NCBI GenBank assembly: GCA_028222435.1
Contig: JAOIST010000001.1
Coordinates: 1-64,000 of the forward strand
Reading direction: 5' to 3'
DNA from: Candidatus Pelagibacter sp.
Lineage (GTDB): Bacteria; Pseudomonadota; Alphaproteobacteria; Pelagibacterales; Pelagibacteraceae
DNA length: 64,000 bases
Part shown: in pieces, positions 9,320 through 41,310 of the stretch
Numbering within the stretch: the first letter of the stretch is position 1
Layout: each line of letters begins with the position of its first letter
Notes under the pieces: generated by a model
Seen by the model: only the letters and a program-made list of their open reading frames with translations
Told to the model about the DNA's origin: nothing
The model's database searches: none
Made by a program: the position numbers and the translations under genes

Positions 9320-10022
9320 ATGAATGAAATAACTCAAATAAGAAAATTGAGTTTATGGATATTTTTTATTCCATTAATAGCAATAAACCTTTGCTTGGTC
9401 ATCTCACAAAACCCCGAATTTTTAGAAAATACTTTTTTTAGTGTAGATCAAATTGGTAGGTCTGGATTTTCAATACCTTACTTTGATGGAAGTTTGTCAA
9501 TTAGTAGAGCTTCTAGAACCTTCCCACAGTATTTAATTTTTAAACCAGCAATGATTATCACGGCAATAATTCTTTATTATTATTGGGTAAATAATAATAA
9601 TTTAGTTAACAAGTTCAAATCAACAAATATAAATTATAAATTTAAAACTTTTGGAATTCTTTCAGCCGTGTTTCTTGCTATTCATTCTATTTTTCTTGGT
9701 ATAAAATTTGATATTCAAATTTTTAAATTATTGAGAAGAATTGTATTGTTGTTATTCATTATATTTGAAATTATAGCTCAAGGAATACTTGTTTATCATT
9801 TTTTTTAAAATCAAAGAAAAAATTTCAGATTTAATTAATAAAAAAATTCTAACTTTAAAAGCTATTTTAGTTTTAGTTTTAGCAACCATTGCGATACTGA
9901 GCGTACCTATTCTTATTGATAAAGGAAATACGCACTTCAAGCATGCATTGGAGTGGAATTATTTTGTCGGAGTTATATTATTTTATTTTTTTACAAGATT
10001 TCTTTGGAGAAGAACCACATAA
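9320..10022 (+). CDS. multi-pass membrane protein broken by one frameshift, family uncertain
   Basis: A 162-residue frame (9320-9808) runs into a stop just after a run of eight T (9799-9806), and the +1 frame continues to 10022. Removing one T joins them into a 233-aa protein with about five to six membrane helices; the junction would read LVYHFFKIKEKISDL. The first extracytoplasmic segment (VDQIGRSGFSIPYFDGS...ISRASRTFPQ) loosely recalls Frag1/DRAM/Sfk1-type proteins, but I do not claim that family. It follows the basic peptide gene by 14 bp and may be co-transcribed. Error, decay or slippage could explain the break. Confidence 0.6.
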
Positions 10023-10190
10023 ATTTCTAGGCTTTCGCCCAGAAATTTAGTAGTTTTGGCTCGTCGTTTTAGGCGCTACCGCCAAGCCGTCCCGATGGAC
10101 TATTCTAGCGCTACTAGGTCCACCTTTCTGCCCTTTAAGCTTGAACCTCTCGGTTTTTCCCTAAATGGCCAGTTAAGAGTTGCCTCTTAA
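10021..10190 (-). ncRNA. structured small RNA of unknown class (6S-like candidate)
   Basis: This block has much higher G+C than its surroundings and no reading frame. On the minus strand it begins with UUAAGAG-GCAA-CUCUUAA (10190-10173) and ends with AAAUUUCU-GGGC-GAAA-GCC-AGAAAUUU (10048-10021). Both hairpins have GNRA tetraloops only on this strand, and the 3' hairpin gains a G-U wobble where the plus strand has an A-C mismatch. Between them, long-range helices pair 10057-60 with 10168-71, 10068-72 with 10161-65, 10078-81 with 10151-54 and 10083-87 with 10139-43, around an apical hairpin at 10096-10122. The long irregular rod suggests 6S-like RNA; I found no SRP, RNase P or tmRNA signature. 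Confidence 0.6.
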
Positions 10191-10211
10191 TTAGATTAAT
10201 TAAATCATTTT

Positions 10212-10248
10212 AAAAAAAAAATTGGTATCACTTTTAACGTGCAGTGAT
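10212..10248 (-). terminator. rho-independent terminator of mnmA
   Basis: On the minus strand, directly after the mnmA stop, ATCACT (10248-10243) and AGTGAT (10232-10227) form a short stem, and after a 5-nt spacer a run of ten T follows (10221-10212). The stem is weak but the T tract is strong. It would separate mnmA from the RNA block downstream. Confidence 0.5.
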
Positions 10249-11388
10249 TTAAGCTGTTAATTTAGTGGATAAATTTTTATTATAGGTCTTATGTATCCAA
10301 CCACCGCCCAATACTTTATCCCCAAGATCATCTTTAGAGTAAAATACACAAGCTTGACCAGGAGAAATTCCTGTCTCTTTATCTAAAATTTCTACATCAG
10401 CTGAATTATCTAAAAAATTAATTTTAGCTTTTAAAAGCCTTCCTGTAGATCTTACTTTAATATTGATTGTTTCATTAAATTCTTTTTTAGATCCAAGAAT
10501 ATTTAAATCTCTCAATCTAATTTGTTTTACTTCAAGACATTCTTTAGTACCAACAATAATAGTATTTTTATCTGCGTCTATATTTACAACATACAGTGGA
10601 TTGTTGCTTGCTATCTTTATCCCTTTTCTTTGACCTATTGTATAATTTATAATTCCCTCGTGATCTCCTATTTCTCTACCATTAATATCAAGAATTTTTC
10701 CAGACTTAAAAGACTCCGGTCTAAATTTTTTTATAACTGATGCATAATCGCCGTTAGGTACAAAGCAAATATCTTGACTGTCAGGTTTTGTGGCTACATT
10801 TAATTTCAATTTTTCAGCTATTAGTCTTGTTTCGGATTTATCAATTTCTCCCAAAGGAAATCTAAGATAGTCTAATTGTTCTTGGGTAGTGCTAAACAGA
10901 AAATAACTTTGATCTCTATTTTGATCTTTCGCTCTGTACATATTTGCATGGCTATTAACTTTAATTCTTGAAACATAGTGACCAGTTACAAGTGCATCAG
11001 CTTTTAACTCTTTTGCGTATTTAAATAGATCTCTAAATTTTACTGTTTGATTGCATTGTACACATGGAATTGGTGTTTCACCAGCGGCATAACTATCTAT
11101 AAAAGAGTCTATTACTTCAGTTTTAAATTTTTTTTGATAAAATAGAATTTTATGACTGATATTGATATATTCTGAAACTCTTTTAGCGTCCAAAATATCT
11201 TGACCAGCACAGCATTGTCTACCTTCTTTTGATTGTTTAGAATCATCATATAATTTTAATGTTATGCCGGTTACATCATATCCTTCTTGCTTCATAAGTG
11301 CAGCCACAACAGATGAGTCTACTCCGCCAGACATGGCAACGACTACTTTAGTATCTTTTTTTGATTTATTAATTCCTAGAGAATTCAT
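10249..11388 (-). CDS. mnmA: tRNA-specific 2-thiouridylase MnmA
   Basis: 379 aa, full length. The PP-loop [10 protein letters not shown] is at residues 20-29. The two catalytic cysteines lie in PCVQCN (about residue 108) and [16 protein letters not shown] (about 210), and the family segment TGHYVSRI follows the first. MnmA adenylates U34 of Glu, Lys and Gln tRNAs and inserts sulfur delivered by a sulfur relay. Single gene on the minus strand, divergent from the DUF3553-cysQ genes, with a terminator straight after the stop. Confidence 0.97.
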
Positions 11389-41155: not shown

Positions 41156-41300
41156 CCCATCTGTCTATGTACCTGAGAGATTTAATCCTTCGGTGAGGCC
41201 AAAAAGCCTGCTTTCCAGAGTTATTACGGTAACGGTCCTTTTGCCTGAGAGTTTCCGGGGTGGTTGCTCCTTCGGCGCTATATTTAAATAGTCTCTCCCG
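41156..41300 (-). promoter_or_regulatory. tandem glycine riboswitch upstream of gcvT
   Basis: On the minus strand two glycine aptamers follow each other. The first contains GGGAGAGAC at the start, CCGAAGGAGCAACC, then ACTCTCAGGCAAAAGGACCG; the second has CTCTGGAAAGC, CACCGAAGGATTAA and TCTCTCAGGTACATAGACAG. These are the conserved cores of the glycine class. The second ends directly before the first possible gcvT start, so it can control translation or elongation. Glycine riboswitches before gcvT are established in Pelagibacter and normally switch expression on. Confidence 0.95.
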
Positions 41301-41310
41301 TTACTAACTC

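Follow-up and report, generated by a model that had tools for sequence, protein, structure and literature searches.

IMES-2 (Rfam RF02035) is an RNA described from marine bacteria, and 6S RNA, a free-standing RNA near it in size, folds as one long hairpin that opens into a central bubble, binds RNA polymerase and templates pRNA. The literature that we searched states no function for IMES-2. A search for the name returned only a passing mention, in the available text of the giant squid genome paper, in which IMES-2 is named as possible environmental contamination and marine metagenomes are mentioned (PMC6962438); the available portions of PMC2864571, PMC4809877, PMC3840354, PMC6429828, PMC3023696 and PMC12286853 contain no mention of IMES. 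The orphan structured bacterial RNAs GOLLD, ROOL and OLE resemble IMES-2 in having kissing-loop contacts, but they are far larger and, in the available text on them, are shown as RNA-only multimers (PMC12286853), whereas IMES-2 is known here from sequence alone. The SAR11_0636 element of ‘Cand. Pelagibacter ubique’ has likewise been suggested to be a separately transcribed RNA, but its description as a three-stem junction, in the sections available, sets it apart from IMES-2 (Meyer et al. 2009, PMC2704228).

The locus studied here lies in a 64,000-nt stretch of Candidatus Pelagibacter sp. DNA (the window), and it is virtually certain that the block in question belongs to the IMES-2 family. Comparison of the whole 64-kb window with all 4227 Rfam families at their curated cut-offs gave two matches in total, IMES-2 and a glycine riboswitch (41223–41310, minus strand, 72.9 bits). 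The IMES-2 match passed the curated cut-off (153.6 bits versus 54.7, E 3.4e-40, cmscan) and spanned model positions 1–141 of 141, its full length; therefore, the block is not the unnamed class that a preliminary description, made from the sequence, had entertained. That description was correct in setting aside SRP RNA, RNase P RNA, tmRNA and tRNA, none of which matched at the locus in the Rfam scan or, for tRNA and tmRNA, with ARAGORN. A permissive Rfam scan of 9850–10320 yielded, besides IMES-2, only three matches, all far under their cut-offs (E 5.5 to 8.6). The window copy is a typical IMES-2 member, with the same four hairpins and the same conserved loops as the family model. A predicted contact between loops 3 and 4, together with a conserved element upstream and a hairpin at the 3' end, goes beyond the nested structure line that cmscan prints for RF02035, in which the loop contact is absent; an earlier description of IMES-2 or the Rfam entry may already record some of these features.

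The block differs from its surroundings in composition and in folding. The GC content of 150-base windows at 10000–10199 is 47%, compared to 15–36% in the flanking kilobase on each side, which bears out the earlier description of a GC-enriched block amid about 30% GC. The minus strand of 10018–10200 folds at −64.9 kcal/mol (z −5.7), a value equalled by none of 200 shuffles, while the plus strand of the same block folds at −47.4 kcal/mol (z −2.1), equalled by 7 of 200. The minimum-energy fold of the minus strand is the Rfam consensus, except for extra local pairs within loops 3 and 4. G-U cells far outnumber A-C cells in the aligned relatives (125 versus 5), which assigns the conserved structure to RNA of the minus strand and argues against transcription from the plus strand alone; the argument for this strand had been made from a G-U wobble and from the GNRA loops GCAA and GAAA, and it holds across the relatives, with both loops present in the minus-strand sense (10180–10183 and 10033–10036). 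A third GNRA loop, GAGA, caps hairpin 2. The four long-range helices that had been proposed to nest around an apical stem give way to five hairpins in a row (Table 1): stacked helix segments surround an apical loop in hairpin 2 only (3+2+5+4 pairs), and this hairpin is local, with a length of 45 nt. The RNA likely extends over 10013–10197, with upstream elements reaching 10241.

Table 1. Parts of the IMES-2 gene in the window
Feature	Positions	Strand	Basis or remark
IMES-2 RNA core, four hairpins	10056..10197	-	cmscan, 153.6 bits
Hairpin 1, GCAA tetraloop at 10180–10183	10173..10190	-	compensatory change in 5/7 pairs; fold
Hairpin 2, 4x4 internal loop (GAAA/CAAG), GAGA tetraloop at 10148–10151	10128..10172	-	Rfam consensus, fold, covariation
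AAA linker after hairpin 2, within GCAGAAA	10125..10127	-	alignment A1
Hairpin 3, loop UAGCGCUA (10106–10113)	10094..10124	-	compensatory change in 8/8 stem pairs
Predicted kissing contact, loop-3 side, GCGCUA	10106..10111	-	loop complementarity in relatives
Hairpin 4, loop GUAGCGCC	10058..10088	-	Rfam consensus, covariation
Predicted kissing contact, loop-4 side, UAGCGC	10073..10078	-	loop complementarity in relatives
Terminator-like 3' hairpin of 19 pairs with a GAAA loop; probable 3' end of the RNA	10013..10055	-	alignment, terminator scan
Upstream element CACGTTAAAAGTGATAC, family form CAAY-N5-6-GTGATAC	10225..10241	-	about −45 to −28 from RNA start
Possible −10 region TGATTTAAT	10199..10207	-	partly conserved columns; no sigma-70 consensus match

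Relatives were collected with the Rfam model. IMES-2 was found, under strict filters, in 2 of 385 genomes of a class sample of the Alphaproteobacteria, and in 139 of the 297 genomes of the order to which one of these two carriers belongs, with one match per genome; one of the 139 matches, that in G613, is only partial because the contig ends there. We take the surveyed order to be SAR11, in part since one IMES-2 locus, L091, is from Pelagibacteraceae and since the preliminary description had pointed to SAR11. The remaining 158 of the 297 genomes, whose completeness is not given, had no match, and therefore IMES-2 is not needed by the whole group. Strain HTCC1062 of ‘Cand. P. ubique’ probably lacks it as well, because nothing in the available part of the published table of GC-rich intergenic regions fits IMES-2 (PMC2704228). 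A covariance model of our own, built from relatives (R1), found no diverged IMES-2 outside the order, returning the same 2 of 385 class-sample genomes under the strict filters. Within the order R1 matched 145 of the 297 genomes, and its surplus was dropped, as these matches lie in or across coding frames: they comprise seven places at 18.9–24.8 bits, one of them an additional place in G572 and the others in six genomes not matched before, and of the seven places six lie between rpoA-like and rplQ-like frames and one in another gene, judged by eye. A two-loop pattern scan of genome contigs gave at least 118 stretches; almost all of these came from bacteria that are not related, and one locus, L091, was useful. 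The locus set used below consists of 112 of the 139 loci and L091 (113 loci), or 114 with the window.

Covariation in these relatives argues for the four-hairpin consensus structure. Compensatory changes occur in 28 of the 37 nested pairs in alignment A2, in which 97.9% of cells are paired compared to 85.3% in shuffled and 32–40% in slid controls; A2 comprises 43 model-aligned sequences and is fitted to the structure under test. An independent MAFFT alignment (A1, 37 sequences) agrees, with compensatory changes in 25 of the 37 pairs. A lack of compensatory changes in relatives had been named in the preliminary description as evidence that would count against the RNA, and 28 pairs carry them. 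The GCAGAAA motif is kept even in the most divergent members, L119 and L120.

The relatives also point to a kissing-loop contact between hairpins 3 and 4, which we consider very probable from the pattern of changes. The two loops are complementary in all 43 sequences of the alignment, with at least 5 of 6 pairs in each. In A2, 96.9% of the cells of the predicted contact are paired, versus 93.6% in shuffled and 3–56% in slid controls; eight cells are changed on both sides, a number reached by none of 500 shuffles, and these fall in three pairs (6 of 500), while the count of different pair types does not exceed that of the shuffles (99 of 500), all of which is to be read with the caveat of the covariation tool that kindred sequences can outdo shuffles even without structure. 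On A1, which places L119 and L120 one column out of register, 93.7% of cells are paired. Among the 114 loci, AGCGCU occurs with UAGCGC in 86 and AUCGCU with UAGCGC in 21, with rarer combinations besides: L153 and L164 have AGUACU in both loops, L119 and L120 combine AGCACU with AGUGCU, which are complementary yet not self-complementary, and L151 has AUCGCU with UAGCGA, with L155 and L158 as single odd cases. In an MnmA tree of 21 rows, L153 and L164 are parted by a 100/100 branch and the other 19 rows have AGCGCU; several other forks of the tree are open. Since this branch separates L153 from L164, the coupled loop change arose at least two times, and the coupled changes in the contact as a whole would number at least three.

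The predicted contact is not equally strong in all lineages. It is weaker in one clade of 21 loci (the L154 type), with five pairs including a G-U, or a bulge, and also in L155 and L158, and its pair 92–130 fails in 5 of 43 sequences. A local three-pair stem in loop 4, which would exclude the contact, is possible for 36 of the 43 sequences, with 93.0% of cells paired. When the sequence of the window is folded singly, local pairs in loops 3 and 4 are also preferred. However, this stem is broken in 7 of the 43, all of which retain no fewer than 5 of the 6 pairs of the contact. We predict from this complementarity that the two loops physically touch.

Both ends of the RNA are accompanied by conserved features from which its start and end of transcription would follow. 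One strict pattern for the upstream element matched 106 of the 114 loci, whereas five control offsets gave 0, 0, 2, 0 and 0 matches among the 114, and the eight loci that it missed carry near variants. The CA ten bases 5' of GYGAT is invariant in 36 representatives, GYGAT itself being the anchor and thus invariant by construction. The element has no match to a sigma-70 consensus. Its exact 18-mer occurred 10 times in 20 genomes (15 carriers and 5 non-carriers of IMES-2), seven times at IMES-2, in a search in which the own elements of 8 of the 15 carriers are not exact matches to the query. The three remaining occurrences were considered as a possible regulon and rejected, as they lie inside coding DNA that is phosphate transporter-like; in addition, GTGATA was absent from up to 70 nt upstream of 36 SRP RNA and tmRNA match loci. 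At the other end, the 60 nt that follow the core have folding energies of −17 to −26 kcal/mol in 114 of 114 loci (median −21.7). The hairpin formed there is 19 pairs long in ten aligned sequences of the mnmA context, and the longest T run near it has at least four bases in 92 of the 114 loci and three in 22, including the window. A terminator scan of 9950–10300 reported a single site, 10049–10020 on the minus strand.

Considering this evidence together with the gene contexts below, we propose that IMES-2 would be an independent minus-strand transcription unit of ∼185 nt, transcribed from a promoter of its own that lies shortly after mnmA and terminated at the 3' hairpin that belongs to it. The RNA would fold into five hairpins in a row, and pairing between loops 3 and 4 would give it a compact tertiary fold. 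In this form, pre-folded, it would act in trans without the need of an Hfq-type chaperone, and it would most probably be the RNA component of a ribonucleoprotein. We assign this explanation as a whole (own transcription unit, kissing fold, Hfq-independent action in trans and likely ribonucleoprotein) a probability of about 0.6. The ribonucleoprotein part, taken separately, is tentative: the likeness is drawn because the RNA is predicted to be stand-alone and strongly folded, with a tertiary contact and its own upstream element, and a protein partner is suggested by exclusion alone.

Profile searches covered 20 genomes of the order other than that of the window, 13 with IMES-2 and 7 without. 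Matches to Hfq (PF17209) were found in 0 of the 20, with 5 of 14 controls positive, although a divergent Hfq could escape the profile; CsrA (PF02599) likewise gave 0 of 20 (controls 3 of 14), as did ProQ (controls 1 of 14). These results speak against a CsrA sponge and against an Hfq- or ProQ-dependent small RNA. We also compared the distribution of SRP RNA and tmRNA. SRP RNA was matched in 16 of the 20 genomes at E ≤ 0.001 (13 over the cut-off), namely in 9 of 13 carriers of IMES-2 and 7 of 7 non-carriers, and tmRNA in 19 of the 20 (12 of 13 carriers and 7 of 7 non-carriers), the sole miss being a carrier, G650. Because so many carriers retain tmRNA and SRP RNA, IMES-2 does not generally stand in for one or the other. 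It may be connected with loss or divergence of SRP RNA in some lineages, since the four genomes that lack an SRP RNA match (G410, G430, G464 and G600) are all carriers of IMES-2. As a separate observation, weak second tmRNA matches are present in G600, G574, G410, G420, G430 and G616, most of them 0.6–3.4 kb from the full gene, and resemble what an island insertion at tmRNA might leave.

Regulation of mRNAs by antisense pairing without Hfq, with exposed loops and linkers (GCAGAAA, loops 3 and 4) as seeds, is an unlikely alternative for which there is some basis. A free-standing RNA with conserved unpaired stretches and its own upstream element fits such a regulator, and post-transcriptional control has been proposed for ‘Cand. 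Pelagibacter ubique’, as stated in the available text of PMC2864753. However, the lack of both Hfq and ProQ matches argues against it, as do the many conserved residues that sit in structured or mutually complementary elements and the absence of any T run longer than three after the core in the window and in 13 of the 20 other loci of the mnmA context.

The pairing of loops 3 and 4 could instead be intermolecular, giving dimers or rings made of RNA only, which we regard as rather improbable. The same palindrome is present in both loops in most lineages (GCGC, or GUAC in L153 and L164) and would permit same-loop dimers, hairpins 3 and 4 are just 4–5 nt apart, which fits intermolecular pairing, and RNA-only complexes with intermolecular kissing loops are described for GOLLD, ROOL and OLE in the available text of PMC12286853. 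By contrast, L119, L120 and L151 have lost the palindrome and kept the complementarity of loop 3 with loop 4, and therefore selection does not act on dimers of like loops; covariation as such reads alike for pairing in cis and in trans. The bolder version, that IMES-2 is a small, self-assembling counterpart in miniature of GOLLD, ROOL and OLE, forming dimers or rings of RNA only in streamlined bacteria without detectable Hfq, CsrA or ProQ, is to be considered improbable a shade more firmly.

A diverged 6S RNA, or a 6S-like occupation of RNA polymerase, is very improbable. The suggestion had been made in the preliminary description (‘such as 6S’), and it gains some appeal from the similar length of the two RNAs and from a 6S role that looks vacant: the model RF00013, which is weak in Alphaproteobacteria, had no match at E ≤ 1 in 40 genomes of the order, while it matched 3 of 3 other Alphaproteobacteria at E ≤ 0.001, with 1 of 3 over the cut-off. 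However, 6S was equally undetected in the 20 of these genomes with IMES-2 and in the 20 without, so 6S and IMES-2 are not complementary. Moreover, the Rfam scan of the window gave no RF00013 match, and the covarying fold of IMES-2, with five separate hairpins, is not a single long hairpin with a central bubble. The data thus do not support the earlier suggestion.

The sequence of IMES-2, the upstream element and the 3' hairpin stay together across three gene neighbourhoods, although the adjoining genes differ. Based on short motifs, the upstream neighbour within 500 nt is mnmA in 20 of the 113 loci, integrase-like in 71, nuclease-like in 2 and another gene or none in 20, and the downstream neighbour within 600 nt is MGMT-like in 83, a convergent gene of 233 aa in 18, SRAP in 2 and another gene or none in 10. 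Pfam confirmed one example each of the integrase, MGMT, nuclease and SRAP genes and the MnmA of the window, and also identified a DUF2938 gene. We are confident that IMES-2 is an autonomous gene, and the free-standing, structured minus-strand RNA of the preliminary description thus finds support in the upstream element, the terminator-like hairpin, the covariation and this independence of gene context. In the window, the 233-aa ORF of relatives is split (9320–10022, plus strand) into ORFs of 162 and 77 aa by a frameshift at a T run near 9800, real or an assembly error, and the two pieces matched no Pfam family.

The RNA could in principle be an integrase attachment site or be borne by an island, which we judge highly improbable. 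A phage-integrase-like gene (by its N-terminal motif, one case checked with Pfam) lies divergently upstream in 71 of the 113 loci, glycosyltransferase-type genes, assigned by eye, adjoin IMES-2 in several regions, and L192 (G556) and L209 (G581) have one to three extra genes, acyltransferase-like or methyltransferase-like by eye, directly behind the 3' hairpin, where their DNA diverges from that of G476. However, no integrase adjoins IMES-2 in the loci of the mnmA context, there is one match per genome, and no copy was found in viral contigs (searched with one exact pattern) or in phage records. The only direct repeats, AT-rich and 14–15 nt long, were in 4 of 11 regions, each 12–27 kb in extent and so not covering longer islands, and the two far junctions (L192 and L209) had none longer than 7 nt. 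IMES-2 may nevertheless mark an insertion hotspot in the 71 loci, L125 among them, with the divergent integrase-like gene. An element acting in cis, as the 3' UTR of mnmA or the leader of the gene that follows, which in many lineages is MGMT-like, is the least credible of the readings: IMES-2 does lie close behind mnmA in the window, and the MGMT-like gene downstream is on the same strand in the cases inspected, but mnmA precedes IMES-2 in just 20 of 113 loci, 20 loci have a convergent gene as the following one (18 with the 233-aa gene and 2 with SRAP), the upstream element holds its position with respect to the RNA in each of the three contexts, and the stable hairpin after the core, with its T runs, argues against it.

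An independently transcribed, pre-folded RNA that would act in trans remains our preferred explanation of IMES-2, a known family whose function is unexplained. The comparison of relatives adds a predicted loop contact and an upstream element of its own, which make this RNA testable, and the loop contact in particular is a concrete structural hypothesis that comes with natural compensatory variants for its testing. The genomes of this order that were examined have no detectable Hfq, ProQ or CsrA (0 of 20) or 6S RNA (0 of 40), yet 139 of 297 keep the elaborately folded IMES-2, and few bacterial groups in the sea are as abundant as the one to which this orphan RNA belongs.
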